From contig WBUG01000033.1 of assembly GCA_008933835.1 (NCBI GenBank), positions 1 to 36,665 on the forward strand: 36,665 bases of DNA, written 5' to 3'. How positions within the stretch are numbered: the stretch's first letter is position 1; each line of letters begins with the position of its first letter. Under the pieces are notes generated by a model. That model ran no database searches. It had not been told where the DNA came from and was given only the letters and a program-made list of their open reading frames with translations. The stretch is from Bacteroidota bacterium (GTDB lineage Bacteria; Bacteroidota; Ignavibacteria; UBA10030; UBA8401). The translations under genes and the position numbers were made by a program. Below are positions 665-19,969 of this stretch, in pieces.

Positions 665-2980
665 TCACTCCGGTTCCGGCCGTGTCGTGCGCCCGAACGG
701 AATGTGCATCCGGACGACGATGTCCCTCCCGGGATTGTCGATGAAGTACCGGAAGCGGCTGAGGTAGTCCCGGTACGGCGTGTTAAAGATGTTCTGAACG
801 GAGATATTGAACCGGACCATGTGCGGTCCCATCACGAACTCCCCGCCGTACTCGATGTCGTACAACGCATACCCGGGAGGAGCCGGGGTGTAGTCCGCGT
901 TCGGTGGAACGCGGGTCTGCCGCGCCACGCCGGTGCCGGTCACCTCGACATAGGCCTCTTCGAGGCCCAGATGCCTCGGAAGGTGATAGTGGAGCCAGAG
1001 CCGCACCCGGTCCGACGGCATCTGGAAGAGCGGCTGGTCCGCCGCCATGTCGTCGCCGCGCACGACGGAGAGCGACGCGCCGCCCCGAAGGTCATCCGTC
1101 AGGTCGGTCTCATAGGAAAGGTCCGCACCGGTCATGAGCACGTCGGACTGACGGTAGATCATCGTCGGGAAGATGCCGCGCAGCGTCAACGTGGGCTGCA
1201 GGCTCGGGAACGCGAAGATGAAATCGTCCATGCGGTTCACATACAGCGAGATCTCCGCGAGGGACGATTCGCTCCGGTGTTTGAACGTCACGTCCGCGCT
1301 CACGCTCCGTTCCGGCGTGAGCCCCGGATCGCCGATCTCGAACTGCGCCGTACCGTGGTGCACACCGTAACTATAGAGTTCGTTCACCGACGGCGGGCGC
1401 CAGCCGGTGCCGAGATTGAGGTTGAGCGACCATTCCGGCTGGAACTGCCAGATGACCCCTGCCGCGCCGGAGGCGCTCGTGTACTCATGGGTCGCGTTCG
1501 GAATGGAGCGCGACGGATAGGCGTACACCTGCAGTGACTGCATGTCGACCCGACCGCCGGCGCTCAGGGTCCAGACCCCTTCCGTGAACGTTTCGAGCAT
1601 ATAAGCGCCGCCGATGTACGAGCGGAAATTGGGGATGAGAAAGCTCAATCCCTGTCCCACGTTCCCCTGCCGCATGCCGCTCACGCCGACGGTCCCGTAC
1701 AGGCCGCCGATGGGAGCATGACGGAGTTTCACGTCCGCGCTGTACGTGGTGAGGGTGAGGTCGAAGTTCGCCCGGCCGCGTGAACGGGCATGTCCGTCGT
1801 ACTCTTCGCGCCCGTTGCTCTGCCAGCCGTACTGCATCTCGAACTCCCCCACTCCCCGAACGGGATACGACGCGTGCACCGACCAAAGGTCATGCGTGAT
1901 GACCTGCTTCGGCGGCTGGATGTCGTACGTGAAGGGATACTCCTGCAGCGGCCGTCCCGCTTCGATGGCGCGGTTGAGGTCGTCCAGATTGCCGAGGTGG
2001 GAACCGCGGTAGATGCCGAGCTCCGTTCCGAAGTGACTGTAGTATGCGGTCAGCGAAAGGTCCGACAGCGTGTACCCGAACGCCGCGGAACCGTCGAACT
2101 CCCGGAATCCCGAATTACCGATGACGTAATCCGGCGCCGATGAGTTCCCCGCCTGCCGTCCGCTCGCCTGCAGCCGCCAGGTGAGTCCGCCGAGCAGACC
2201 CGGTCCTCCTTCCACGAGGGCCGAACCGGCCGCCTGACGGTTGTTCATGAATCCGTTGAGCGACACCTCGCCGCCGATGCCGGGCGACGTGCGCATCTCG
2301 CGCGGTTCGAGACGGATGACGCCGCCGATGGCACCCGCGCCGTACTCCACGCCGGCGACCCCCTTCAACACCTCGATGCGTGCCGGCGCGAACGGATCGA
2401 TCTCCGGCGCGTGCTCGCCCCCCCACTGCTGTCCCTCCTGCGGCACTCCGGCGTTGAGCACCCGCACGCGCTGACTGTGGAGTCCGCGCAGCACCGGTTT
2501 GGCGATGGAGGGACCGGTGGTGAGGACGGTGACGCCGGTGATGCTCTCCAGCGCCTTGCCGAGCGTCTGTCCGCGGTGCCGGTCCACCTCTTGCGGCGTC
2601 ATGACGATGACCGACTGCGACGTAGCGGTGAGTCCTGCCCGGTCCAGGTTCGCGGAGACGCGCACTTCGGAGAGTTCGATGTCCGACGGCGAGAGACGGA
2701 AGATGCGGTGCAGGTCCTTCGTCAGCGTGAGCACGGAGGTCTGGTCCGAATAGCCCAGCAGCCGGCAGATGACGGTGTACCGTCCCTCCGGCAGCGTCAC
2801 GGAGAATCCGCCGCGGTGGTCTGTGGAAACACCGGCGTTCCGCTCGACGATGAAGATGGTGGCGTTCTCCAGCACGGTGTTCGTGGTGCTGTCCACGACG
2901 GAACCGGAGAAGGTCACCGTCTGGGCCTGCACCGTATGGAACAGCGCGAAGAGCGCCAGGATGGTCGCTCGCACAGCCAT
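665..2980 (-). CDS. TonB-dependent outer-membrane receptor (metal-type)
   Basis: A 771-aa receptor. It has a signal peptide (about 1-20, ending VQAQ), a carboxypeptidase-regulatory-like beta-sandwich (about 22-100), a plug domain (about 115-230) and a 22-strand barrel to the C-terminus. The plug carries LGKALESITGV, an LRGLHSQRVRVL segment, QQWGGEHAPEIDPF and RIEVLKGVAGVEYGAGAIGG. The QWGGEHAPEID stretch and the C-terminal RYFIDNPGRDI resemble, from memory, the ZnuD-like/metal class of TonB receptors rather than SusC-type glycan receptors. There is no SusD partner. The upstream neighbour is a small His/Cys membrane protein and the downstream one a lipoprotein with possible metal ligands, so transition-metal uptake (zinc is a guess) is the best inference. 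There is no clear Shine-Dalgarno site before the ATG. Confidence 0.9.
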   Translation of the reverse strand: MAVRATILALFALFHTVQAQTVTFSGSVVDSTTNTVLENATIFIVERNAGVSTDHRGGFSVTLPEGRYTVICRLLGYSDQTSVLTLTKDLHRIFRLSPSDIELSEVRVSANLDRAGLTATSQSVIVMTPQEVDRHRGQTLGKALESITGVTVLTTGPSIAKPVLRGLHSQRVRVLNAGVPQEGQQWGGEHAPEIDPFAPARIEVLKGVAGVEYGAGAIGGVIRLEPREMRTSPGIGGEVSLNGFMNNRQAAGSALVEGGPGLLGGLTWRLQASGRQAGNSSAPDYVIGNSGFREFDGSAAFGYTLSDLSLTAYYSHFGTELGIYRGSHLGNLDDLNRAIEAGRPLQEYPFTYDIQPPKQVITHDLWSVHASYPVRGVGEFEMQYGWQSNGREEYDGHARSRGRANFDLTLTTYSADVKLRHAPIGGLYGTVGVSGMRQGNVGQGLSFLIPNFRSYIGGAYMLETFTEGVWTLSAGGRVDMQSLQVYAYPSRSIPNATHEYTSASGAAGVIWQFQPEWSLNLNLGTGWRPPSVNELYSYGVHHGTAQFEIGDPGLTPERSVSADVTFKHRSESSLAEISLYVNRMDDFIFAFPSLQPTLTLRGIFPTMIYRQSDVLMTGADLSYETDLTDDLRGGASLSVVRGDDMAADQPLFQMPSDRVRLWLHYHLPRHLGLEEAYVEVTGTGVARQTRVPPNADYTPAPPGYALYDIEYGGEFVMGPHMVRFNISVQNIFNTPYRDYLSRFRYFIDNPGRDIVVRMHIPFGRTTRPEPE

Positions 2981-3061: not shown

Positions 3062-3376
3062 TTACGAGCGGGCGACGGGAGGTCCGCGGTGCGGAGCGGT
3101 GATGACCGCGCCGGCGGAGACGGGAGCATCGGAGACGACGGCCAGCGGACGTTCGTCCGCATGGTCCGGAGCGGCCGCGACCGGAGCGGGTACGTCGACG
3201 GCCGAGTTGGAAGAGAAGGTGCAGACCGCGCAGTCGCCGCCGTGATGGGACGATGCGTGGAGCGCGGGAGAATCCTCGTACGACAGGGCATGATGGTGCA
3301 GCGGCACCGCGACGAGCGTCAGGGCGCCGTAGACCGTCAGGAAGAGCAGTGAGAGTATCGAGGAATGCCGGGACAT
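3062..3376 (-). CDS. small His/Cys-rich membrane protein (DUF2946-like)
   Basis: A 104-aa protein with one N-terminal hydrophobic segment (about residues 7-25), directly followed by HHH (27-29) and then the cluster SSHHGGDCAVCTF (His44-His45, Cys49, Cys52). The remainder is Ala/Pro-rich with no visible fold. Small proteins with one membrane segment and a D-C-x-x-C motif are commonly found beside metal TonB receptors and are often annotated DUF2946-like; the match here is by pattern only. The chosen ATG lies four bases after the bL28 stop. A start seven codons further upstream would overlap bL28. The protein may handle metal in the periplasm or act as a sensor; function is unknown. Confidence 0.6.
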   Translation of the reverse strand: MSRHSSILSLLFLTVYGALTLVAVPLHHHALSYEDSPALHASSHHGGDCAVCTFSSNSAVDVPAPVAAAPDHADERPLAVVSDAPVSAGAVITAPHRGPPVARS

Positions 3377-3380
3377 CGGC

Positions 3381-3611
3381 TCAGATCTTGCCCGCACGCA
3401 CCATGTTCGCCAGTTCCGCCGTGCCGTTCTTGGTGAGCGACTTCAGCGCCTTGGCGGTGAGCTTCACGTTGACGTACCGCTTCAGCTCCGGGACCCAGAT
3501 ACGCTTGCTCTGGATGTTCGGCATGAACCGGCGGTTCGTGCGGTTGTTCGCGTGCGAGACGTTGTGGCCGGACATCGGGCCGGTGCCGGAGACTTCACAT
3601 CGTTTGGACAT
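3381..3611 (-). CDS. rpmB: 50S ribosomal protein bL28
   Basis: A 76-aa protein with the bL28 pattern: N-terminal CEVSGTGPMSGHNVSHANNR, then RRFMPN, KRIWVPE and a basic C-terminal half (YVNVKLTAKALKSLTKNG). It is a component of the large ribosomal subunit near the exit-site tRNA region. It has only one cysteine, so it is the non-zinc (C-minus) form. An AAGGA lies before the ATG, and the gene is 26 bp behind the bL38-like gene, forming a short ribosomal operon. The usual Bacteroidota neighbour bL33 is not between them. Confidence 0.97.
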   Translation of the reverse strand: MSKRCEVSGTGPMSGHNVSHANNRTNRRFMPNIQSKRIWVPELKRYVNVKLTAKALKSLTKNGTAELANMVRAGKI

Positions 3612-5889: not shown

Positions 5890-5921
5890 ACGGTTCACGA
5901 GTGTTGGTTGAAATGAAAGGA

Positions 5922-5950
5922 CCTTCGCACGGCAGTCCGCCGTGCGAAGG
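5922..5950 (-). terminator. 12-bp hairpin between amidohydrolase and CocE-type hydrolase
   Basis: A perfect 12-bp stem (CCTTCGCACGGC / GCCGTGCGAAGG) with a 5-base loop lies 10 bases past the amidohydrolase stop and ends 32 bases before the hydrolase start. On the minus strand it is followed by TCCTTTCATTTC, a moderate U-rich tract. It may be a partial terminator or an mRNA processing/stability element that lowers expression of the last gene. Confidence 0.6.
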
Positions 5951-5960
5951 TGCATGACGG

Positions 5961-7613
5961 TCAGGAAGCGGTGAGCGTGCTGCGCAGGACCTGTCCGGCG
6001 AGACGCCCGGTGATGCGGTCATTGTCCACCGCCGCGACGCCGTTCACGAAGACGAACGGGATGCCGGTCGGGAACTGGTGCGGATTCAGGAAGGTGGCGT
6101 TGTCCCGGATGGTCTCGTAGTCGAAGATGACGATGTCGGCCGCCTTCCCCGGAGCGAGCACTCCGCGGTCCTTCAGCCGCAGCTTTTCGGCGGGCATCGA
6201 GGTCATCTTCCGGATCATCTCCGGCAGCGAGCAGACCTTCCGTTCCTTCTGGTAGTACGCGATGGCGCGCGGGAAGGTGCCGTACGTGCGCGGGTGCGGA
6301 TTGGAGCGGGAAGCGGGAGAGTACGCACCGCCGTCCGACGAGACCATCGTGTTCTTCCATCCCAGCGTCAGTTCGGTCCCCGGTTCGTCCATGCCGAACC
6401 CGACGATGCCGACCGAGCCGTTCTCGCGTATCATCAGGTCCACCACGAAGTCGAACGGGTCCGCCTTCAGCGCGGTGGTGACGGCGAGGACGGTCTTGCC
6501 GACGTAGGGTTTGGACTCCTCGTTCCGGGTGGAGGTGATCATGACGGCGTCCCACGAACTGAGTCCCGCCACCTTCCGTTCCGTCTCCGGCCGTATCTTG
6601 GCGAGCTGCGACGGGTCCTTGAGCCGTTCGATGAACTTCTCCGTGCCGCCGTCGCGGCACCAGAGCGGGAAGAGGTTCGCCATTCCGGTCTGGAACGCGA
6701 GGTACGGATACCGGTCGCAATGGACCTCGATCCCTTCGGCGAGGGCCGCCTCCATCATGCGCAGGGTGATCTCCGGTTTGTGCCAGTTGGAGGCGTTCTG
6801 CGCTTTCAGGTGCGAGATCTGCAGGCGGGCGCCGGCATGACGGCCGATACGGATGGCCTCGTCCAGCGCTTCGAGAAGCCGGTTATCCTCGTTGCGCATG
6901 TGAGAGGCGTAGAGCCGGTACGGTTCGGGGGCCGCCTTCGTCAGCTCCCACAGTTCCTCGGTGGCGGCGAAACTGCCGGGCGTGTACTCGAGTCCGGTCG
7001 AAACGCCGACGCAACCCTGTTCGATGGCCTTCCGCACTTCGCGCTTCATCGCCTCCATCTCTTCCGGGGTCGCCGGCCGGTTGTCCTCCCCCATCACCAC
7101 CTCGCGGACGGTGCCGAGTCCGATCATGGTCGCGAAGTTCTGCGCGCATCCCTGCTTCTGCAGCGTGGTCAGGAACCCGTCGATGTCGGAATAGAGCGGG
7201 TCGTCCGCCTCGTCCTCCTCCGTCCGCCGTTTGCGCGGTGCGCGTGAACTTCCGTCCGCCCCGCCGACCTCCGTCGTCACCCCCTGCCGCAGTTTGCTGT
7301 CGGCGGTGGGGAGGCGCAGGATGGCGCCGTCCGTGTGCGAGTGGATGTCCACGAAGCCCGGCACCACCATGCGGCCGCGGGCGTCGACGATGCGGTCCGC
7401 CGAATCGCCGTCGATGCGGCCGAGCGCGGTGATGACGCCGTCGCGCACGCCGACGTCCGCCGCGAACCCGCCGGCGCCGGTGCCGTCGATGACCGTGCCG
7501 TTGCGGATGATGAGGTCGAAGCGGTTGCGCATCGCGAGGGTGGGTGCCGCACAGCCGGCGAGGTATCCCGTGGCCGCGAAGGATGTCGCGGTGAGGAAGG
7601 TGCGTCGTTTCAT
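5961..7613 (-). CDS. N-acyl-D-amino-acid deacylase-like amidohydrolase, Tat lipoprotein
   Basis: A 550-aa metal-dependent amidohydrolase of the D-aminoacylase family, which removes acyl groups from N-acyl-D-amino acids. Start chosen at the ATG giving MKRRTFLTAT..., a twin-arginine signal with a lipobox-like YLAGC (Cys21), so it should be exported folded and lipidated. A longer frame upstream only overlaps the PorV gene. Visible motifs: VDIHSHTDG (His91, His93), GVSTGLEYTPG near 203-213, His238 in ASHMRNED, His268 in ISHLK, and Asp427 in VSSDGG. The usual N-C-G metal-ligand cysteine is replaced by Asp120 in GGADGSS. The C-terminal GVLAPGKAADIVIFD is typical of the family. It follows the PorV-like gene by 17 bp. 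D-peptide or N-acyl-D-amino acid cleavage is inferred; a dihydroorotase-like or other amidase role is possible. Confidence 0.85.
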   Translation of the reverse strand: MKRRTFLTATSFAATGYLAGCAAPTLAMRNRFDLIIRNGTVIDGTGAGGFAADVGVRDGVITALGRIDGDSADRIVDARGRMVVPGFVDIHSHTDGAILRLPTADSKLRQGVTTEVGGADGSSRAPRKRRTEEDEADDPLYSDIDGFLTTLQKQGCAQNFATMIGLGTVREVVMGEDNRPATPEEMEAMKREVRKAIEQGCVGVSTGLEYTPGSFAATEELWELTKAAPEPYRLYASHMRNEDNRLLEALDEAIRIGRHAGARLQISHLKAQNASNWHKPEITLRMMEAALAEGIEVHCDRYPYLAFQTGMANLFPLWCRDGGTEKFIERLKDPSQLAKIRPETERKVAGLSSWDAVMITSTRNEESKPYVGKTVLAVTTALKADPFDFVVDLMIRENGSVGIVGFGMDEPGTELTLGWKNTMVSSDGGAYSPASRSNPHPRTYGTFPRAIAYYQKERKVCSLPEMIRKMTSMPAEKLRLKDRGVLAPGKAADIVIFDYETIRDNATFLNPHQFPTGIPFVFVNGVAAVDNDRITGRLAGQVLRSTLTAS

Positions 7614-7630
7614 GGGGTGGTCCGTTCGGG

Positions 7631-8662
7631 TCAGAAATCGATGAGCATGGTGATCATCTGCGTTCCGGTGAAGAACCGCATCTGCTGATACGCATAGTCG
7701 AAATGGACGGCCAGACCGGTCGCGGGGATGCCGTACGCGACGCCCGCACCGGCGGACCAGAGGTACACCTCCTCCAGTTCCGCCGTGCCGTTCACCACGG
7801 AACTGACGACGCGGTTGCGCAGACCCGCGCGGAGGAAGAGCATCTCTTCGAACGCGAACTCGGCTCCGACGTGCATCTGCGGCCGGTAGTCGCGCTCGTC
7901 GCGGTAGTCCATCGTGCCGGTGAACCGCACCATGTCGGTGCGGAGCGGCGTCACCGCGAAGCCGAGCTGGAAGACGACCGGGAGCGCCCACTCCTGCGTC
8001 TCGAGATTGGCGACGACGTCCGACGGATTGGAACCGACGTCCGGCAGCGGATCGATGCGCACCTGCAGGTCACGGCCGGCGATGGCGGCGGCGGGACCGA
8101 AGTTCTGGATGGACATGCCGACCCGGAGCCAGCCGATATCGTACTGGCTGCCGACGTCCACCGCGAAGGTGTTGGCGGAGGAGTTGGAGATGGTCTCGTT
8201 GAGGTACTTCAGGTGGACCCCGACCTTGAACCGGTCGTTCATCTGCCGGGCCCACCCGATGCCGATGGCGGTGCTGTGCGACGAGAAGATCTCGCCGGTG
8301 CCGGCGGTGGCGTCCCAGCTGGTCACCTTCATATCGCCCATGCTGAGGTACGACACGCTCACGCCGAGGACGCCGAACTCCCCCACGGGGGCGGCGACCG
8401 CCACGAAGTTGTGCGCGATGTCGGCGATCCAGTTATTGTTGGACAGGAGCACCTGGTTGCCGGTGAGATTGGCGATGCCCGACGGGTTCCAATAAAGGGC
8501 CGACGCGTCGCTCGCCACTGCCACCTGGGACGAGCCCATGGCGAGCGCGCGGGCGCCGACGCCGATCTTCAGGAAGTTCATCGCCGACGTGCCGGCGTTG
8601 TCGAACTGTGCGGAGGCGGGGAGGGCCGCCGCGAGGAGCATGAGGACCACAGATCGTTTCAT
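7631..8662 (-). CDS. PorV/PorQ (UPF0164) family outer-membrane beta-barrel protein
   Basis: A 343-aa protein with a signal peptide ending PASAQF, then the family hallmark: FLKIGVGARALAMGSS followed by ASDASALYWNPSGIANL. The remainder alternates as expected for a FadL-like beta-barrel and ends in ITMLIDF with terminal Phe. PorV-type proteins shuttle or anchor type IX secretion substrates at the outer membrane, and PorQ-like paralogues are widespread in the FCB group. It lies 36 bp behind a large secreted protein whose tail looks like a type IX sorting signal, which supports a shuttle or anchor role for that neighbour. ATG at 8662 is preferred (CGGAG just upstream); a GTG two codons earlier is possible. 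The general secretion-system genes are not in this window. Confidence 0.85.
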   Translation of the reverse strand: MKRSVVLMLLAAALPASAQFDNAGTSAMNFLKIGVGARALAMGSSQVAVASDASALYWNPSGIANLTGNQVLLSNNNWIADIAHNFVAVAAPVGEFGVLGVSVSYLSMGDMKVTSWDATAGTGEIFSSHSTAIGIGWARQMNDRFKVGVHLKYLNETISNSSANTFAVDVGSQYDIGWLRVGMSIQNFGPAAAIAGRDLQVRIDPLPDVGSNPSDVVANLETQEWALPVVFQLGFAVTPLRTDMVRFTGTMDYRDERDYRPQMHVGAEFAFEEMLFLRAGLRNRVVSSVVNGTAELEEVYLWSAGAGVAYGIPATGLAVHFDYAYQQMRFFTGTQMITMLIDF

Positions 8663-8698
8663 ACGCACTCCGAAGTCATGAGAGGTTCGCCGCGGTCA

Positions 8699-11692
8699 TC
8701 ATTTGATGAGGGCGAGCTTGCCGATGTACTCGCCCACGCCGTCCACCTCCACGTGGTAGATGTAGATGCCGTACGACACCTCCTGGCCGTTGTAGCTCTG
8801 CAGGTCCCAGGCGGCGATGGTCGGCTGCGCCGCGCGCGCCGCATCGTGCACGATGGTGCGCACCAGGTCCCCCGCCACGTTGAAGATGCGGATGGTGCAC
8901 CGCGGCGGCAGGTGGTGGAACTGCACCTCCTTCTGGATGCCGAACTTGTTCGTCTCATAGTACGAACTGACGACGAACGGATTGGGGACCGCGGTGATCG
9001 CCAGGTCGCTCTTCGTGATGGTGGCGGTGCTGTACGGTACGGTCTGGAACTCGAACACGTCCTCGGACGTGAGCGGGTGATTGGTGACGAGCTGTAGTTT
9101 GTCCCCCGGCGATGCGACGGACGAGGAATCGAAGAAAAGGTAATAGTTGAAGGTCGTCTTCGGCGCCTTCACGCCCGGAAGGAATCCGGTCAGCCGGATG
9201 TTCGTGACGGTGTCGTACAGGGCGTTGCAGATGATGAGTCCGTCCCCGTTCGCGATGTCGAACGTACTGTCCCCCGCCGCGGTGTTGAGGATGGGGATGA
9301 TTCGGTTGCCCGTGGTGATGTTGCGCAGGTACAGCGGAATGCGGTAGATCCTGTTCATGTTCGAGTCGCGTGCGGTGTAGCTCCAGAGCGTGTCGTACAC
9401 GGCCGGGTCAGCGACGATGATCTCGTAGTCGTCGGAGAGCCCGCTTCCGGACGAATCTTCGAAATAGTACTGCCAGCGGTCGAGCTTCGCCTTCTTCGCG
9501 GCGGAGGGAAGCACCTGGCGGAGGTCGTAGACGCCGACGGGAATGTCGCGCACTTCCACCCCGAGTCCGTCGAAGAGCGCGATGTTCTCCCGGTCCGGTG
9601 AAAAGAGGGGCTTCCGGACGATGGAATCGGACGCGATGCCGACGGAACCGGTGACGGGCGTCGACGTGCCGCTGTAGCGGATGGTGTACCGTTTGTCCGA
9701 CGGAACGGACGCGTCGTACGAGACGGTGTAGGAGCGCCCGGTGACCTTCTTCGGATCGAGCACCTTCACCGAGGGGACCGCCTGTGAACGGCCCGCTTTC
9801 AGCACCGGCTGACCTTTCGTCGCCCCTCCGGAGACCCCCTTCGGCGGCGCCGCGGGGATGACCGCGACGGTGTTGCCGCCGAGCTGCTGACGGCTCGCCT
9901 TGATGGAGTTGATCAGCGGCGGGATGGCACCGTCGTCGCCGTCATAGGCGCAGACGGCGTACCAGTACTCGTATCCGTTGGAGACGTTCCGGTCGGTGAA
10001 CGTGTGCTTCAGACCGGTGTCGTCGCCGAGCCAGAAGTAGCGGCCCAGTTCGAGCTTGCTCTCGCCGGTGACGCCGTCCTTCGCATCGTACTGCGCGAGC
10101 GGCTTCCAGTACTTGAATCCCCCTTTGATGTCGGCGATCTTCTCCCCCCACGTGATGCCGCGGTCGGTGCTCTTGAAGATCATGTATCCCTGGAACGCAT
10201 TGGTGGTGGTGAGTCGGTCGTTGACGTGGTCCACCGAACCGTCCGCCTTATAATAGATGCCGCGTTCCGAACGGTCGTCCCAGTACAGCGTCACTTCGCG
10301 GTCGCCGACCACGGTCTGGACGGCCGGCTCCGGGGGCGGTTCCGCCGCCTGATAGTTGGAATTATAGAGGAGCTGGCAGAAGATGGCGTTGTTGAACAGG
10401 TCGCTCTTGTTCGCCGCATGGACGGTGGCGAACGCGAAGTTGAGCTGCTGTCCCGGCACGAGCGTGAACGGTCCGCTTCCCACCACGTACGTGATGTCCG
10501 GACCGTACGAGTTCGGCGTCTGCGTCCAGTCGCGCTGGTGCGGCGTGACGTTCACCGGCGCCATCAGCCCTGCCGCCAGCTGGTCGTACTCGGTCACTTC
10601 GGACTGCGGCGCGGCGGAGTACTCGAACACCTGGAACGTGGAGATGCCCCTCGGCCGTCCGGTGTTCGGGTCGTTCGGGGTCTCAAGGAACTTCAGTCCG
10701 ACCCAGCCCACGTTCTTGGCGATGAGACCTTCGACCTTGTCGTCGCCGTCCCACAGGTAGGTGAAGTTCCACAGCAGGGAGTCCTGCTTCGGCGCGTATC
10801 CCGCCACGTCGGTCCCCGGCGGGATGAAGGCGGCGAAATCGTCGGTCCACTCCGCGCCCCCCTGCTCGGGACAGTCGGGATCGTCGTGCATGCCGATGTA
10901 CACGTCGTGGAGCGTGTCGGTACCGACGTTGGTGAGCAGCATCTTGTACACGATGAAGTTCTGGTTCAGGATGTCGTCCCACTGCAGCGCCCACATGTCC
11001 ACCCGCACGTCCATCGGCGACGGTTTATTGCCGTCCACCGTATCGTTGTCCGTCACGACGAAGTACGCTTCGCGCGTTGCGCGGACGCCGCCGTTGACGA
11101 TGCCGGGGAAACCGGAGGGGCCGACGGCGGGCTGGGTGTACGAAAGACCGTTCTGTGTCAGCTTCCGGGCGTACGACGGGAGTTCGGAGAGGGGCCGGGT
11201 GTTGGGCCACACGGACGGCCAGCTCGCCGGTTTGTCGCTGAAGGCGATGCCGATGTTCGCCTTCTCGTCCTCCACTCCCGCATCGAACCCTTTCAGCGGC
11301 TGGAACTCCTCTTCGCTGAACCGGGCCGCGCCGCGGGTTCCGCTCGCGACGAACTTGGCGCCGGAGGATTTCCGGGCGCCGATGAGCGGCGCCATGGTCC
11401 AGCGGTACGTGTAGCCCGACTTCGCCGGATATTCGTAACAGAGTCCCCACCGGTCGTAGCCGAGGGTCGCCGCATTGGAGATGCGGGCCCAGACGTTGCC
11501 GACGTCGAGGATGGAGAGCTTGCGGTCCGCCACGAGGGACGGCTTCAAGAGCGACGGCGGCGGAAGGGGTTTGTACCCGCGCGCCGGGGCGAGCACGGTG
11601 TTATAGTACTCGTACTTCGTCATCTTCCCTGGATCCTGTCCGAAGAGGAGGAGCGGGAGGGCGAGCACGGCGATGAGGCGGTTCATGGTCAT
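8699..11692 (-). CDS. large secreted surface protein with FN3-like region and type IX-like C-terminal tail
   Basis: A 997-aa protein. It has a signal peptide (MTMNRLIAVLALPLLLFGQ). A roughly 480-residue N-terminal domain of unknown fold is rich in Trp, Asp and Gly (MDVRVDMWALQWDD, YIGMHDDPDCPEQGG). A fibronectin-III-like segment starts near EPAVQTVVGDREVTLYWDD and runs through YEYWYAVCAYDGDD. A linker and a beta-rich stretch follow, then a C-terminal FlgD/type A sorting-like domain (AVPNPF, IRIFNVAGDLVRTIVHD, GIYIYHVEVDG) ending GKLALIK. The start overlaps the TonB receptor stop as ATGA, implying translational coupling. It is probably exported by type IX secretion and displayed with the downstream PorV-like protein. 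I recall similar proteins beside TonB receptors in other FCB genomes, but know of no assigned function. Substrate capture for the receptor is an inference. Confidence 0.8.
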   Translation of the reverse strand: MTMNRLIAVLALPLLLFGQDPGKMTKYEYYNTVLAPARGYKPLPPPSLLKPSLVADRKLSILDVGNVWARISNAATLGYDRWGLCYEYPAKSGYTYRWTMAPLIGARKSSGAKFVASGTRGAARFSEEEFQPLKGFDAGVEDEKANIGIAFSDKPASWPSVWPNTRPLSELPSYARKLTQNGLSYTQPAVGPSGFPGIVNGGVRATREAYFVVTDNDTVDGNKPSPMDVRVDMWALQWDDILNQNFIVYKMLLTNVGTDTLHDVYIGMHDDPDCPEQGGAEWTDDFAAFIPPGTDVAGYAPKQDSLLWNFTYLWDGDDKVEGLIAKNVGWVGLKFLETPNDPNTGRPRGISTFQVFEYSAAPQSEVTEYDQLAAGLMAPVNVTPHQRDWTQTPNSYGPDITYVVGSGPFTLVPGQQLNFAFATVHAANKSDLFNNAIFCQLLYNSNYQAAEPPPEPAVQTVVGDREVTLYWDDRSERGIYYKADGSVDHVNDRLTTTNAFQGYMIFKSTDRGITWGEKIADIKGGFKYWKPLAQYDAKDGVTGESKLELGRYFWLGDDTGLKHTFTDRNVSNGYEYWYAVCAYDGDDGAIPPLINSIKASRQQLGGNTVAVIPAAPPKGVSGGATKGQPVLKAGRSQAVPSVKVLDPKKVTGRSYTVSYDASVPSDKRYTIRYSGTSTPVTGSVGIASDSIVRKPLFSPDRENIALFDGLGVEVRDIPVGVYDLRQVLPSAAKKAKLDRWQYYFEDSSGSGLSDDYEIIVADPAVYDTLWSYTARDSNMNRIYRIPLYLRNITTGNRIIPILNTAAGDSTFDIANGDGLIICNALYDTVTNIRLTGFLPGVKAPKTTFNYYLFFDSSSVASPGDKLQLVTNHPLTSEDVFEFQTVPYSTATITKSDLAITAVPNPFVVSSYYETNKFGIQKEVQFHHLPPRCTIRIFNVAGDLVRTIVHDAARAAQPTIAAWDLQSYNGQEVSYGIYIYHVEVDGVGEYIGKLALIK

Positions 11693-14514
11693 TGTCCTTC
11701 CCGGTACGTCTTGTCGAAATTGATCTCGACGCCGAGCTCCACGTGGCGCGGCGGTCCGAACCAGTTCGGGATGTGGCTCGCCTCGATGCTGGTGTTCGGG
11801 TTCGCGGAGTAGTCCGGCCGGCCGGTGGAACTGAAGACGTTGTACACGTTCCGCCGGTTGAGCAGGTTGTCGATGTCGATGTAGAAGAGGAGCCCGACGG
11901 GGTCCATCCCCCATTCATAGTACACGCGGGTGTCGACGGAGCCGGTCCAAGGCTGCCGGTCGCTGTTGCGTTCGCCGATGGGTTTTCCGCGGGCATCGGC
12001 CGGGGTGTACGGCAGTCCGCTGCCGAACTGGCCGATGACGCTCGCGCCCCAGGAGGGGTAGGCGACGCTGGCGGTGAAGTTGAGCGTGTGCGGCTGGTCC
12101 CAGCCGAGCGTGACGGTCTTCTTCGGCGCCACGATGCCGTAGACGGAGGCGAGGTACGCCTCGTCCGCGTGGCTCTGCCAGTAGTCGGCGTTCCCCTCGG
12201 CGCGGGAGTAGGTGTAGTTCACCTGGAAGGAGTAGTGGTCCGCCAGCCGTTTTCGCAGCGAGAGTTCGACGCCGCGGGAGTTGGCGTAGTCCAGGTTCAC
12301 GATCTGGGTGTACGCGTACGGCCGCACGTCGATGCGGGCGGTGGAGATGTAGTCGTAGGTGTCCTTGTAGAACAGGGTCACGCTGCCGGTGACGTTCTCC
12401 GCCACTTCGAACTCGCCGCCGAACTCGTACGCGTGGGTCACTTCGGGCTTCAGGTTCGGGTTGCCGATGGAAGGCTCGTACCCCTGGCCGAGGTTCGGCT
12501 GCGGATACTGCGGGTCGATCTGGTTGAAGCGCCGGTACAGGAAGTTGAAGTCCGGATACTGGTAGAACTGTCCGTACGAGAAGCGGAACTTGATGCGGTC
12601 CGTGATGGGATGGGCGAACCCGATGCGGGGACTGACGTGCATCTTCGGCTTCACCGCGGCGTCGGGGAGCGCGGTGTTGGACGGGTCATTGATGATGGAG
12701 TAGATGTCGGGCGCCTTGCTGTCCAGGTAGTCGAACCGGAGGCCGAGGTTGAGGATGATGTCGTCGTACTCGAGCTTGTCCTGCACGTAAGCGGAGAGCT
12801 GCATGGGACTGAACTCGTACGACGTCACCTCGGAATGCCGCTTCCAGAAGGCGTACGACGGATCGATATGGTCCCAGTAGCTGTTGATGCCGCTGATCCA
12901 GAAGTTGTTGACGGTGTGGAACTTCACTTCGAACCCCGCCTTCACGAGATTGTTCTTGTCCACCTGGCTCGTGATGTTGCCGATGAGGGTGCGGGTCGTG
13001 GTCTTGCTGTCCTCGAAGAAGTTGTCGACCGAGGGGACCATCACGATGGCGCGGTCGATCCCCTGCGCGGTGAGCTGGGCGATGAGACCGTCGGACAGCA
13101 CCGTCCCCTTCGACGCCACCACGGCACCGGAGGAGTCCGTGAGGTCCGCACCGAGCGTGCGGTGGCCGTACGCGGCGATGTCGGTGAAGAGGAGCGGCTG
13201 CGCGTAGTATCCGGCGAACTCGTAGTTGGAGGTGGAATCGAACGCGACCGCATCGCTCACGGGATAGAAGATGCGCCGGAACCGCTGCTCGAGCGGACCG
13301 TCCAGGTCCTCCTCGTACGTGAACGTGTTACCGTGCTTGCTGAAGTACGAGAACTTCAGTTCATAGAAAGCGGTGGTACTGAGGGTGTGCGTGAGCGCCA
13401 CGGAGTAGAGCTGGCTCTCGAGCCGCTGCTGGTCGTTGAACTCGGGATACTGCTTGTAGTACTGGTCGTAGTCGCGCCACTTCCGCAGCGAGTAGGAGAA
13501 GGCCGCGTTCACTTTCAGGTCGGACGCGGGACGTGAGGTCACCTTGCCCGTGATGCGGTCCTTCCGGTCGAACAGCCCGAAATCGAACTCGCGCTGCACG
13601 GGGCGCCCGCCGCGCGATTCGTACGACGGTCCGGTCACCTTGTTGAGGTACGTCTGCGTGGAGAGACGGTCGCCGCTCACGAAAAGGGTGAGCGCCTCGG
13701 GGTCCGTGAAGAGGAACGGGACCGGACCGCTGAGCGTCACTTCCTTACGGACGGTGTTCCAGTCGTTCGATGCGACGCCGAAACCGTCCGTGCCGAACCG
13801 CACGGAGCCCTGATAGTGGCGCCCCCCTTCCGGCGTGGTGATGTTGACGACGCCGGACTGCGCCTGTCCGTACTCGGCATTGAACGTTCCGCTCATCACG
13901 GTGAGGGACGAGACGCCGGTGCGCGGCAGGTCGATGGCCAGACCGCCGTAGATGGGGTCGTCCACCCGTACGCCGTCCACGAGGTACGTCACCTCACCGG
14001 ACCGGCCGCCGCGCAGATGGATGCCGTCGTCGCCGCTGCCGTTGTTGCTGCTGACGAATCCGGTCACCAGGACCAGCGCCTGGGTGAACGTGTTGATGGG
14101 CAGCGAACGGATCTGCTGTTCGTCCACCGTAGTGAGGGTGGCGGTGGCGTCCTTCTGGAACGCCTTCCGCTCCGCGGTGATGGTCACTTCCCCCATCTCG
14201 ATCCCTTCGGAGACGAGCGCCGCGTCCATTTCGGTGGTGAGGTCCGGCGTCACGACGACGTTGGTCACCGTCAGGGAGCGGTATCCGAGGAACGAGAAGC
14301 GGAGCGAATAGACGCCGGCCGGGATGTTCAGCATGAGGTAATCGCCGCCGACGTCCGTGACGGCGCCGTACGATGTTCCGATGACGGCCACGGTCGCGTT
14401 CGGCAGCGCTTCGCCGGACGAACGGTCCGTGACATGTCCTTTGATCTTTCCGGTGACGCCGGCCGCGGCGGCCGAAGCGAAGATGAGGGTGAGCAGAACG
14501 AGGCGATGTATCAT
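11689..14514 (-). CDS. TonB-dependent receptor with N-terminal carboxypeptidase-regulatory-like domain
   Basis: A 941-aa receptor. It has a signal peptide (residues 1-18), a beta-sandwich (about 24-105; IKGHVTDRSSGEALPNATV, then FSFLGYRSLTV), a plug with SLPINTFTQALVLVTGFV, GIHLRGGRSGEVTYLVDGV and LTVMSGTFNAEYGQAQSGV, and a large barrel ending VELGVEINFD plus a short charged tail. This plug type (LRGGRxGEVxYLVDGV) is common in FCB genomes for receptors without SusD. It is the first gene of the string that continues with the secreted 997-aa protein, the PorV-like protein and two hydrolases. It has a promoter of the local type 44 bases upstream and an AAGGGGGG ribosome site. Substrate unknown; peptides or acylated amino acids are suggested only by the downstream enzymes. 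Confidence 0.93.
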   Translation of the reverse strand: MIHRLVLLTLIFASAAAAGVTGKIKGHVTDRSSGEALPNATVAVIGTSYGAVTDVGGDYLMLNIPAGVYSLRFSFLGYRSLTVTNVVVTPDLTTEMDAALVSEGIEMGEVTITAERKAFQKDATATLTTVDEQQIRSLPINTFTQALVLVTGFVSSNNGSGDDGIHLRGGRSGEVTYLVDGVRVDDPIYGGLAIDLPRTGVSSLTVMSGTFNAEYGQAQSGVVNITTPEGGRHYQGSVRFGTDGFGVASNDWNTVRKEVTLSGPVPFLFTDPEALTLFVSGDRLSTQTYLNKVTGPSYESRGGRPVQREFDFGLFDRKDRITGKVTSRPASDLKVNAAFSYSLRKWRDYDQYYKQYPEFNDQQRLESQLYSVALTHTLSTTAFYELKFSYFSKHGNTFTYEEDLDGPLEQRFRRIFYPVSDAVAFDSTSNYEFAGYYAQPLLFTDIAAYGHRTLGADLTDSSGAVVASKGTVLSDGLIAQLTAQGIDRAIVMVPSVDNFFEDSKTTTRTLIGNITSQVDKNNLVKAGFEVKFHTVNNFWISGINSYWDHIDPSYAFWKRHSEVTSYEFSPMQLSAYVQDKLEYDDIILNLGLRFDYLDSKAPDIYSIINDPSNTALPDAAVKPKMHVSPRIGFAHPITDRIKFRFSYGQFYQYPDFNFLYRRFNQIDPQYPQPNLGQGYEPSIGNPNLKPEVTHAYEFGGEFEVAENVTGSVTLFYKDTYDYISTARIDVRPYAYTQIVNLDYANSRGVELSLRKRLADHYSFQVNYTYSRAEGNADYWQSHADEAYLASVYGIVAPKKTVTLGWDQPHTLNFTASVAYPSWGASVIGQFGSGLPYTPADARGKPIGERNSDRQPWTGSVDTRVYYEWGMDPVGLLFYIDIDNLLNRRNVYNVFSSTGRPDYSANPNTSIEASHIPNWFGPPRHVELGVEINFDKTYREGQ

Positions 14515-14557
14515 ACATCCCCCCTTATAAAGGTGAGCGACAGGCTGGATTCCTGAG

Positions 14558-14588
14558 GTAAAGTAGCGAGTTTGGCGGAGACAAGCAA
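14558..14588 (-). promoter_or_regulatory. promoter of the TonB/secreted protein/PorV gene string
   Basis: On the minus strand TTG (plus 14586-14588), exactly 20 bases, then TACTTTAC (plus 14558-14565), close to the Bacteroidota TTTG-N19-21-TAnnTTTG pattern. The minus-7 box ends 44 bases before the TonB receptor start, the same distance as for the bL38-like gene. The minus-33 element falls inside the loop of the hairpin that follows phoH. Confidence 0.6.
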
Positions 14589-14600
14589 CATGTCTCCGCC
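14574..14600 (-). terminator. hairpin after the PhoH gene
   Basis: A perfect 10-bp stem (GGCGGAGACA / TGTCTCCGCC) with a 7-base loop, 15 bases beyond the phoH stop. No U-tract follows on the minus strand (AAACTCG), so termination may be inefficient. The structure overlaps the promoter of the next gene. Confidence 0.55.
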
Positions 14601-16252: not shown

Positions 16253-18370
16253 TTATTCTTTCAATAGGTACCGGGGTGTCAGCCCCATGTTCCACCAGGT
16301 GAAGGAGTAGATATCCGACCACTCTTCGAGGATCTTGGAGGTCGGTTTTCCGGCGCCGTGTCCGGCGGAGGTCTCGATGCGGATGAGGACCGGATTCGGT
16401 CCCTTATACTTCTCCTGCAGCGTGGAGATGTATTTGAAGGAATGGGCCGGTACCACCCGGTCGTCGTGGTCCGCCGTGGTGACCAGCACCGCGGGATACT
16501 CCACTCCTTCACGGATGTTATGCACCGGAGAGTACTTCAGCAGGTTGGTGAAGTGAACGGAGTCGTCGCTGGAGCCGTAGTCGTTCACCCACGCCCATCC
16601 GATGGTGAACGTGTGGTAGCGGAGCATGTCCATCACCCCCACCGCCGGCAGCGCTACCTTGAAGAGGTCCGGCCGCTGATTGGTGACCGCGCCGACCAGC
16701 AGTCCGCCGTTCGAGCCTCCCTGCACCGCGAGGCGCGACGGGCTCGTGTACCGCTCCTTCACCAGGTATTCGCCGGCGGCGATGAAGTCGTCGAAGACGT
16801 TCTGTTTGTTGAGCTTCATCCCGGCCTGATGCCATTGTTCGCCGTACTCGCCGCCGCCGCGGAGATTGGCCTGGGCGTACACCCCGCCCTGCTCCAGCCA
16901 CGCGAGCCGGATGGCGCTGAACGACGGCATGAGCGAGACGTTGAATCCGCCGTACCCGTAGAGCAGCGTCGGGTTGGTGCCGTCGAGCACGAGCCCCTTC
17001 TTATGCACGATGAACATCGGGATCTTCGTGCCGTCCTTGCCCGGATAGAAGACCTGCTTCGTCTCGTACTTCTCCGGATCGAAATCGATCTCGGTCCGCT
17101 GATAGAGCGACGAGGTGCGCGACGCGAAGTCGTACCGGTACACCGAGGCGGGAGAGGTGAAGGAGGTGAGCGTGTAGAAGGTGAACGCGTCACCCCGTTC
17201 TCCGCCGAACCCGCCGACGGTGCCGTACGAGGAGAGCGGGATCTCGTTCTCCAGCTTCCCCTTCAGGTCGTACACGTACACGCGGTGCGAGACGTCCTTG
17301 GTGTAGACGGCGATGAGCTTGCCCCCCACCACCGAAACGGCGTTGAGCACTTCGGGCCTCTCCGGCAGCACGTCGGTCCAGTGCTTCTCCGCCGGCCGGG
17401 CCGGGTCGAAGAGCACGACGCGGCCGTTCGGTGCGCTGCGGTTGGTCGAGAGCAGCAGTTTGTCGCCGACGTTGTCCACGATGGAGATGTCGTCGTCGAA
17501 CGTCTCAAGGATGGGAAGGAACGCGGTCCGTTTCCGCAGGTCACGGTAGTACAGCGCGTTGCCGTTCGAGCCGCGCTGGGAGGCCGAGAGCTGGATGAAG
17601 CGCTGGTCCTCGGTCAATCCGACACCGAAGAGCCGCTGCGGGTGCTCCTTGTCCTGGTACACCAGCATGTCCTTCGCTTGCGGCGTGCCGAGGATGTGAT
17701 AGTACACTTTATGGTACGCGTTCGAGGTGGAGAGTTTCGAGGCGGTGTCCTTCGGGGCGTCGTACCCCGAATAGTAGAAGCCGTTCCCGTACCAGGAGAC
17801 TCCCGTGAACTTCGCCCATTCGATGCGGTCCGCCAACCGCTTTCCGGTGCGGACGTCCACCACGAAGATCTCGCGCCAGTCCGAACCTGCTTTGGAGACG
17901 GAATAGGCGGCGTACTTCCCCTGCTTGTCGAACGCCAGTCCCGCGAGCGAGGTCGTGCCGTCCGCGGAGAAGGTGTTCGGATCGAGGAACACCTTCGGTT
18001 CCGCATCCAGCGAGCCGCGGCGGATGTAGAGCACGGACTGGTTCTGGAGTCCGTCGTTCTTATAGAAGAACCAGTTCTTCCCGGCCCGGAACGGCGCGGA
18101 CTGCTTCGGATAATTATAGAGCTTCGTCAGCCGTTCCAGCACCGCGTTCCGGAACGGGATCCGGTCCAGGTAACCGAACGTGACCGCGTTCTGTCCCTGC
18201 ACCCATTGTTTCACCGCCGCGGCGGTGTCCTGTTCGAGCCACCGGTACGGGTCGTGCACCACGGTGCCGTGGTAGGTGTCCGCCTGCTCCGTCTTCGCGG
18301 TCTTCGGATACGGCAGCTGACCGTACGCGGCGACCGCCGCGAACAGCAGGGTGACGATGATCCGGTTCAT
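16253..18370 (-). CDS. prolyl oligopeptidase (S9A), secreted
   Basis: A 705-aa serine peptidase that cleaves short peptides after proline. A signal peptide (1-17, ending AAYGQ) places it in the periplasm. The N-terminal seven-bladed propeller starts after YPKTAKTEQADTYHGTVVHDPYRWLEQD, a diagnostic stretch of the family (split here: YHGTVVHDPYRWLE is the core). The catalytic domain has Ser553 in QGGSNGG, Asp636/637 in ADHDDRVVP and His671 in SAGHGAGKP, nearly the same numbering as porcine enzyme (Ser554, Asp641, His680). Length is normal. It is the last of three genes, 12 bp behind an M14 carboxypeptidase, and is closed by a terminator. It probably feeds on imported peptides. Confidence 0.97.
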   Translation of the reverse strand: MNRIIVTLLFAAVAAYGQLPYPKTAKTEQADTYHGTVVHDPYRWLEQDTAAAVKQWVQGQNAVTFGYLDRIPFRNAVLERLTKLYNYPKQSAPFRAGKNWFFYKNDGLQNQSVLYIRRGSLDAEPKVFLDPNTFSADGTTSLAGLAFDKQGKYAAYSVSKAGSDWREIFVVDVRTGKRLADRIEWAKFTGVSWYGNGFYYSGYDAPKDTASKLSTSNAYHKVYYHILGTPQAKDMLVYQDKEHPQRLFGVGLTEDQRFIQLSASQRGSNGNALYYRDLRKRTAFLPILETFDDDISIVDNVGDKLLLSTNRSAPNGRVVLFDPARPAEKHWTDVLPERPEVLNAVSVVGGKLIAVYTKDVSHRVYVYDLKGKLENEIPLSSYGTVGGFGGERGDAFTFYTLTSFTSPASVYRYDFASRTSSLYQRTEIDFDPEKYETKQVFYPGKDGTKIPMFIVHKKGLVLDGTNPTLLYGYGGFNVSLMPSFSAIRLAWLEQGGVYAQANLRGGGEYGEQWHQAGMKLNKQNVFDDFIAAGEYLVKERYTSPSRLAVQGGSNGGLLVGAVTNQRPDLFKVALPAVGVMDMLRYHTFTIGWAWVNDYGSSDDSVHFTNLLKYSPVHNIREGVEYPAVLVTTADHDDRVVPAHSFKYISTLQEKYKGPNPVLIRIETSAGHGAGKPTSKILEEWSDIYSFTWWNMGLTPRYLLKE

Positions 18371-18382
18371 GGGGCTCTCCTT

Positions 18383-19969
18383 CTATCGTTTCGGGATGAT
18401 GGTGACGATGGAATAGACGCTGCCGTTCCCCCGGTACCGGTCCATGACGTTCCAGGCGACGACGCCGTCCTCGGATTCGGGTTCGAGGAGCTGCATCGCC
18501 AGCCGCGACAGCGGCTGGTCGAGCGGAACGAACAGGGTTCCGGCCGGCACGTCGAGCGTGACGGTCTCGTACCGTCCCTCGACGGTCCGCATCCGGTGCT
18601 TCTGGAACTCCCGCTCGGACAGACGGTCGGCAGTGATGAGGAAACGTCCGGCGGTGACCGTGCGGCGCTGCTGCACCGTATCGATGCGGATGCCGTGGTC
18701 CCGCAGCAGGTCCGCGACGGCGCGGAGGGAATCGGGGATGAGGTACCCCTCCGGAACGGCGGCGGAACGGAGCGCGCGCGTGCCGTAGAACTCCGCCGTG
18801 ACGACGGTGCGGAGGCTCTCCTCCTTCATCAGGTACATCGTCTGGCCGGAGTACGGATTGCGCACCTCGCGCACCGGAGCGAGCAGCAGCGATTCGGCGG
18901 GGGACGATTCGACGATCTCGCCGCGGACGGCGAGGGAGTCGGTCGTCGGCAGCTGCACGGCCCGCTCGTCCGCCGCGGCGACCGCCGCACGGATGGCGCG
19001 CGAGTTCGCGTTCGCTTCGTCCAGCACCGCTTCGACGAGCGCTTTGGTCGCATCGATACGGGTGCGGAAGGTGACGTACGAGTACGCTTCGCTCAGGACG
19101 GCGATGCGGTTCCGGAGACCGACGTAGTTGCTGTTGTACCGCGGCTCATGCGCCCAGTAGAAGTAGCCCGGTTTCCCGGCGGGGGTCCGCTCCAGATAGT
19201 CTCCGTAGCGGTGGACGCGCCACTTGCGCGCTGTCATCCGCTTGTGGACGGCCGGAAAGAACGACGTGCGCTGAAAGGCGTCGAGCGGTCCGTCCAGCGC
19301 GGGATGGAGCGCGTGACTGTAGGTGATGTGGTACCCGTGGAACGAACCGTTGGTCGTGTGCAGGTCCACCACGATGTGGGGATCGTACCGGTCCAGCAGC
19401 GACACGAAGGCGCGGACCTCGGGCGATTCGAGCTTCGTATGGTCGCGGTTCAGGTCGAGTCCCTGTCCGTTCGCCCGCTGTCCCATCCCCGCGACCGGGC
19501 CGTACTGGTAGGGACGGTTGAAGAGGGAGATGTTCTCGTTCCCGTCCGCGTTGAAGATCGGCACGATGATGACGATGAGGCGCCGCCGCCATTCCGCATG
19601 TCCGCCGCGGGCCAGCTCGCGCAGCAGCTCGAGCATCGCCTCCTTCCCCTCCACTTCTCCCGCATGGATGTTCCCCTGCACGTAGACCACCAGCTTGCCG
19701 GAGCGGCGGACCGTTTCGGGACGGATGTCCGGCACGTCGCCGTACACCGCCATCGGCAGACGCCGGCCCGCCGGAGAGTAACCGAGCCAGCCGAACTTCA
19801 GGACGGAGGGGTTCGGCGGGAGCGAATCGAGGAACGCGATGACGTCCTCATACCGCGAGGTCTCCTCGTCGTTCGTCCGTTCCGGACGGGTGAGCTGCGC
19901 CGCGGCAGCGGAGAGCAGGGTGAGAACGAGACAGCAGAGCGTTATCCAGCGTCGAAACATGCGGTGCAT
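18383..19969 (-). CDS. secreted M14-family zinc carboxypeptidase
   Basis: A 528-aa metallopeptidase with a signal peptide (LCCLVLTLLSAAAAQ). M14 motifs: zinc ligands His102 and Glu105 in NIHAGEVEGKE, His204 in DLHTTNG; substrate-binding Asn174-Arg175 in LDLNRDHTK; a likely catalytic Glu294 in VLSEAYSY. The C-terminal 200 residues form an extension beyond the catalytic domain, with no identified fold. It removes C-terminal residues from peptides; whether it prefers peptidoglycan, basic or hydrophobic ends cannot be told. Two ATGs three codons apart could start it. It stands 19 bp behind the prolyl-tRNA deacylase-like gene and 12 bp before the prolyl oligopeptidase, so all three probably share an mRNA. 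Confidence 0.92.
   Translation of the reverse strand: MHRMFRRWITLCCLVLTLLSAAAAQLTRPERTNDEETSRYEDVIAFLDSLPPNPSVLKFGWLGYSPAGRRLPMAVYGDVPDIRPETVRRSGKLVVYVQGNIHAGEVEGKEAMLELLRELARGGHAEWRRRLIVIIVPIFNADGNENISLFNRPYQYGPVAGMGQRANGQGLDLNRDHTKLESPEVRAFVSLLDRYDPHIVVDLHTTNGSFHGYHITYSHALHPALDGPLDAFQRTSFFPAVHKRMTARKWRVHRYGDYLERTPAGKPGYFYWAHEPRYNSNYVGLRNRIAVLSEAYSYVTFRTRIDATKALVEAVLDEANANSRAIRAAVAAADERAVQLPTTDSLAVRGEIVESSPAESLLLAPVREVRNPYSGQTMYLMKEESLRTVVTAEFYGTRALRSAAVPEGYLIPDSLRAVADLLRDHGIRIDTVQQRRTVTAGRFLITADRLSEREFQKHRMRTVEGRYETVTLDVPAGTLFVPLDQPLSRLAMQLLEPESEDGVVAWNVMDRYRGNGSVYSIVTIIPKR

Follow-up and report, generated by a model that had tools for sequence, protein, structure and literature searches.

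What does a TonB-dependent receptor do in a tight run of genes with a large secreted protein, a barrel of the PorV/PorQ family and an amidohydrolase? SusCD is the textbook model of Bacteroidota glycan uptake. The question came up in the window, the whole stretch of 36,665 nucleotides analysed here (contig WBUG01000033.1, from an Ignavibacteria member of the Bacteroidota), where a sequence-only reading had singled out four genes as a candidate uptake system. The features concerned are the following, the 997-aa secreted protein being called P.

11689..14514, minus strand: TonB-dependent receptor, 941 aa, with Plug, CarboxypepD_reg and TonB barrel
8699..11692, minus strand: P protein (997-aa secreted protein), with signal peptide, supersandwich, Fn3/Ig-like domains and T9SS-type C-terminal domain
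8699..9001, minus strand: C-terminal domain (CTD) of P (~residues 898-997 plus stop), with the end GKLALIK
7631..8662, minus strand: outer-membrane barrel of the PorV/PorQ family, 343 aa, proposed to anchor or shuttle P
5961..7613, minus strand: D-aminoacylase-like amidohydrolase, 550 aa, fourth gene of the run
5921..5951, minus strand: terminator-like hairpin after the amidohydrolase, with a stem of 13-14 bp and -26 kcal/mol
~14550..14590 (limits approximate), minus strand: hairpin at the upstream edge of the unit, lying between TonB and a phoH2-like gene
5889-4048: S15/CocE-NonD peptidase, directly beyond the terminator-like hairpin

The coordinates, the minus strand and the spacing of the four genes are all as had been claimed: the TonB stop and the P start overlap in an ATGA, while gaps of 36 bp and 17 bp separate P from PorV and PorV from the amidohydrolase. 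No SusD partner had been seen, and indeed there is none near the four genes. The single promoter placed in front of them found no backing, as a sigma-70 search and a strict FCB-type pattern both gave 0 matches. Strong hairpins stand at both borders, which gives the set the look of a single transcription unit; the S15 peptidase gene beyond was absent from the first account. Elsewhere in the window a second TonB receptor, of the heme/ZnuD-like type (665-2980, minus strand), has just upstream of it a small secreted His/Cys protein with a CAVC motif (3062-3397, minus strand), possibly making a metal-uptake pair.

Is the arrangement found again elsewhere? Searches of the source genome, one with P and one with the family model of PorV/PorQ, and a reading of the surroundings gave 12 triads associating a TonB receptor, a P protein and a PorV-family barrel. 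The order is TonB-P-PorV in 11 of them (one with a small gene between P and PorV) and P-PorV-TonB in the last, L046. Triads hold 12 of the 17 PorV-family genes of this genome that score above cut-off, and 11 of its 30 TonB plug matches, plus one triad receptor that the plug search missed. In other genomes, loci were picked by P similarity alone. The family is present in 38 of 41 genomes of the same order, with TonB directly upstream of 51 of 56 P genes and PorV directly downstream of 53 of the 56 (median gaps 26 bp for TonB-P, 17 bp for P-PorV). As these genes were picked on P alone, yet are nearly all flanked by TonB and PorV, this is not chance.

A wider scan of 84,980 species genomes, with a query made from a tight nine-sequence P alignment, yielded 80 loci in about ten lineages of the FCB group (Calditrichota, Neomarinimicrobiota, Ignavibacteria, Melioribacteraceae, KSB1, Gemmatimonadetes, WOR-3/Stahlbacteria, Eisenbacteria, Fermentibacteria, Rhodothermales and others). 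Where the contig permits the test, TonB lies upstream in 71 of 75 loci, PorV downstream in 63 of 70, and both are in place in 58 of 65. The triad as a gene unit is therefore close to certain. The earlier proposal that receptor, 997-aa protein and PorV make one system came with a test, the conservation of this neighbourhood: the arrangement is kept far beyond the source genome, P rarely occurs without receptor or PorV, and the idea survived. We did not find a description of the triad in the open-access literature, subscription papers and preprints being outside that scope.

Exceptions exist, with P doubled in L103 and L137 and PorV missing in L144 and L195. The second P-like protein of L137 (10505-13333, plus strand), beside the triad, has a type A tail, a possible tail swap. 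L173 and L175 show the order TonB-PorV-P instead of TonB-P-PorV. L036 (7431-13052, minus strand) holds a TonB-PorV pair without P, possibly a variant with another surface partner; the pair is preceded by a putative lipoprotein of 572 aa that has no Pfam family above cut-off. Finally, the TonB receptor of L214 (G000:C6), sister to that of L046, is apparently without P or PorV, a contig end adjoining it.

The three partners have co-diversified. Pairwise distances among the 12 paralogous triads of the source genome are correlated (Mantel r 0.72-0.76, p <= 0.001), and such a correlation is informative because species history cannot produce it among the paralogues of a single genome. In a tree of the TonB receptors of this genome all triad members, with those of L036 and L214, make one clade (support 0.999); over the tree, adjacency to PorV switches state 2 times, where shuffles give 10.6. 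Triad PorVs, with that of L036, are likewise set apart from the PorU-linked core PorV and from others (support 0.93). At the level of the order, TonB distance follows the N-terminal part of P (partial r 0.69) more closely than the tail (0.20). PorV distance, at the same level, correlates with the tail of P (partial r 0.30) not more than with the rest of P (0.51), and we rejected tail-PorV covariation as a sign of contact on this ground.

The triads lie in carbohydrate loci. Many have as neighbours GH94 phosphorylases, GH2, GH3, GH16, GH13 and putative glucoamylases, and also CBM20 proteins, LacI regulators and sugar ABC components, in counts that are merely descriptive since the loci are not independent. 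In the source genome this gives GH2/GH16 at L034, LacI/GH3/GH94/glucoamylase at L035, LacI/GH13 at L041 and an RpiR regulator at L039, while L037 reads GntR-triad-SDR-PL17-like lyase-cupin-MFS, an alginate-type locus; in typical alginate loci a SusC/D pair holds the position of the triad (PMC12323373). Most triad copies thus look carbohydrate-related, and the uptake role first suggested agrees with this setting, which is one of nutrient uptake.

How does SusD itself fit into this picture? The source genome has 0 matches to SusD_RagB (PF07980), P shows no SusD match, and SusD occurs in 3 of 41 relatives of the same order. Among those of 80 phylum genomes that have either, P and SusD counts vary in opposite directions (Spearman -0.65, kinship ignored): none of the 12 genomes with at least seven SusD has P, while 21 genomes have P alongside a few SusD. 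In short, the triad appears to replace the SusCD pair.

We regard it as probable that the triad forms an uptake complex comparable to SusCD, in which the partner at the surface gets there by type IX secretion and is tethered by a PorV paralogue of its own. Sec would carry P to the periplasm and the type IX translocon would move it across the outer membrane, where the PorV paralogue proper to it would collect it via its C-terminal domain. The tail would be kept bound and uncleaved, as PorV does for PorU and PorQ for PorZ, so that P would stay anchored beside or over the TonB receptor. Its supersandwich and Fn3/Ig-like domains might then bind the substrate and pass it to the receptor, which would import it with TonB energy. 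P would in this way do the work of SusD, but as a type IX export product moored to a barrel, not as a lipoprotein. We infer the physical complex, the anchoring by an uncleaved tail, the binding and import of substrate, and the ligand. A more ambitious statement would be that evolution came to a second, independent SusCD solution, with three-part TonB transporters across the superphylum, their type-IX-exported binder, which bears a supersandwich, being permanently docked next to the receptor on a dedicated PorV via its uncleaved CTD; for this we see the chances as evenly balanced.

P and its PorV could also be a mere surface-display pair (adhesin, scaffold or enzyme), co-regulated with a receptor that works alone, with no three-way complex. 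Receptor-free pairs of type B cargo and SprF are known (PMC12618676; PMC9143113), modular proteins rich in Fn3 are often scaffolds, and at L045 (4593-7949, minus strand) a P-like cargo is followed by two PorV-type genes with no TonB receptor nearby. We nevertheless find this account rather unlikely: the receptor adjoins P in the 51 of 56 and 71 of 75 cases given above, its clade is specific to triad loci and co-diversifies with the N-terminal part of P, and SusD, the usual partner, is missing.

To return to the uptake complex and its parts, the receptor scores 107.3 bits with TIGR04056 (SusC/RagA), under the cut-off of 368.25. The barrel passes the PorV-family models (NF033709, 184.8 bits for a cut-off of 90; PF19572, 43.4 for 27), and stays under cut-off with the core PorV, PorQ and PorV2 equivalogs (NF033710, 70.9/250; NF033711, 96.5/220; NF052325, 89.8/325); it has no match to the PorP/SprF family. 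Judged by these scores it is a member of the PorV/PorQ family, not a core PorV, PorQ or PorV2. The best structural match of its model is PorV of the Flavobacterium johnsoniae T9SS translocon (Z 33). As for the secretion machinery, the source genome (a 3.57-Mb assembly) has SprA, 132 Por_Secre_tail matches and, at L033, a PorU-like/PorV pair, in which our reading as PorU is based on length, tail and position beside PorV; taken together these indicate that a type IX system is present.

Known systems offer precedents for the proposed anchoring. PorU and PorZ of Porphyromonas gingivalis keep their CTDs, held by PorV and PorQ respectively (PMC7463736; PMC10202324), and it has been suggested that cognate PorV-like barrels shield a CTD from cleavage (PMC10202324). 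In F. johnsoniae, type B cargo depends on an SprF-like barrel of its own, the gene for which usually comes directly after (PMC12618676; PMC9143113). We had considered RemZ as an analogue of a PorV-like barrel and rejected it, RemZ being a cargo.

What kind of protein is P? In its AlphaFold model (mean pLDDT 78), residues ~49-449 are predicted to make a supersandwich like the one at the N terminus of GH15, GH94 and GH116 enzymes (best match Z 19.3, 253 residues, rmsd 3.1); no catalytic barrel is apparent behind it in the model. The modelled supersandwich is a common fold, and is no proof of sugar binding or of function. Structure comparison likens the remainder of P to strings of Fn3/Ig-like domains, and its end to PorZ and PorU. 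A PDB sequence search with P alone gave no match, one with a profile of the family gave weak CTD/Fn3 matches only, and a viral structure library gave only partial Fn3 and GH65-like matches. The N terminus, MTMNRLIAVLALPLLLFGQDPGK, has by eye no lipobox cysteine.

The tail had been called type IX-like at the outset, a claim that held in part. The tails of the family share homology with type A domains (a profile-profile comparison gives a probability of 96.5% and E 8e-10), but the Pfam and NCBIfam models of types A and B do not recognize them: P has no match at E 0.1 to the type A models PF18962/TIGR04183 and none to the type B model TIGR04131, and among 38 family members none matches the NCBIfam type A model at 0.001. 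The sole T9SS models that match members of the family are those of PorZ (8 of 38) and PorU (3 of 38), a weak likeness to the CTDs of these two proteins as far as sequence can tell. With profiles trained on half of the tails and scored on held-out ones, 66 of the 69 P tails and all 39 type A tails were sorted correctly (median scores 162 vs 14 bits and 131 vs 11), two of the three mis-sorted P tails being cut by contig ends. By this sorting, P tails are a class separate from type A tails. A subgroup (L044, L046, L115, L116) has a few extra residues past the usual tail end, for example ...LAVIQPEERPAR; many P proteins, such as those of L080, L092 and L095, carry long Asp-rich D-x-D-x-D insertions, calcium-binding by their look, not present in that of the window. 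That the 997-aa protein is displayed by the type IX route, as first proposed, fits with its C-terminal domain, its PorV partner and the presence of SprA.

It is on the fate of this tail that another account differs. The PorV paralogue may be a shuttle only, PorU cleaving the tail of P, which would end up on LPS or be released as an ordinary binder or enzyme. PorV does bring type A cargo to PorU, where it is cleaved (PMC7463736), and the source genome has the PorU-PorV pair of L033. We deem this improbable: in this genome the general cargo carries the usual type A tail and for the most part lacks a PorV partner, whereas P tails form their own class, with one PorV each.

We come now to the fourth gene. 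The amidohydrolase matches Amidohydro_3 (87.3 bits for a cut-off of 29.7); of the NCBIfam models listed, the best is PRK09061 (201/340), and none reaches its cut-off. Its start, MKRRTFLTATSFAATGYLAGC, displays by eye a twin-arginine motif and a lipobox. Its place in the system, as first proposed, is not borne out: it follows the triad in the same-genus orthologue L077 only, whereas more distant orthologous triads are followed by a protein with a MetH-activation domain at L078 and by one of the MFS type at L079; the leading families of triad neighbours do not include it. The D-aminoacylase-like enzyme lies outside the module; trailing the triad only within the genus, it is a local accessory at most. 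That all four genes, the set put forward by the sequence-only reading, would be a single dedicated system for uptake and processing of peptides or D-amino acids, we take as very unlikely, for while they stand in a tight run with hairpins at both borders, kept in order at L077 and with S15, S9 and M14 peptidase genes nearby, the amidohydrolase is missing at L078 and L079 and outside the leading neighbour families.

The substrate of the window copy is another matter. Upstream of phoH2 lie a prolyl oligopeptidase (S9; 16253-18370, minus strand) and an M14 carboxypeptidase (18383-19969, minus strand); with the S15 peptidase on the other side, peptidases bracket the triad, and a peptide substrate is possible for this copy. 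Our guess, from the nearby peptidases and the putative aminoacylase, would be peptides or N-acyl-amino acids, noting that same-genus upstream synteny does not prove the function of this copy.

How does the triad compare with known systems? Like SusCD, it joins a TonB receptor to an adjacent gene for a surface partner and has many paralogous copies, every one of them in a separate carbohydrate locus equipped with a regulator and enzymes. Unlike SusCD, its partner is not SusD and has no lipobox by eye, being of the beta-supersandwich/Fn3 type with a T9SS-type tail and a dedicated PorV barrel, and its receptor falls under the SusC cut-off. PorU-PorV and PorZ-PorQ likewise pair a surface protein having an Ig-like CTD with a PorV/PorQ-family barrel, on which the CTD is retained in the known cases; P, however, is neither sortase nor PorZ, and the P-PorV pair occurs in multiple copies and goes together with a TonB receptor. 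In SprB-SprF (type B cargo and PorP/SprF shuttle), too, every secreted protein has a FadL-like barrel of its own encoded after it, but the type B CTD and PorP/SprF models do not match the triad, and such pairs are not described as including a TonB receptor. BtuB-BtuG and similar Bacteroides pairs associate a TonB receptor with a surface ligand-binding protein (PMC10404256); BtuG differs in being a surface lipoprotein, with no barrel anchor known. In the Bacteroidota BAM, finally, a FadL-type barrel beside BamA holds an extracellular protein (PMC12578637). BamA-BamG-BamH is thus a precedent for the geometry proposed for the triad, although it serves outer-membrane protein assembly, not uptake, and BamH is a lipoprotein.

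Many relatives with polymer-degrading loci (Ignavibacteria, Calditrichota, Neomarinimicrobiota, Gemmatimonadota, KSB1 and others) have SusD scarce or absent in the genomes examined, and the triad is a concrete candidate for polymer uptake in such SusD-poor lineages. It also offers a function for many unassigned genes of the PorV/PorQ family, and would add a further kind of cargo/shuttle pairing to the type IX system. As a marker, the TonB-P-PorV arrangement may point to uptake loci overlooked by searches based on SusCD.
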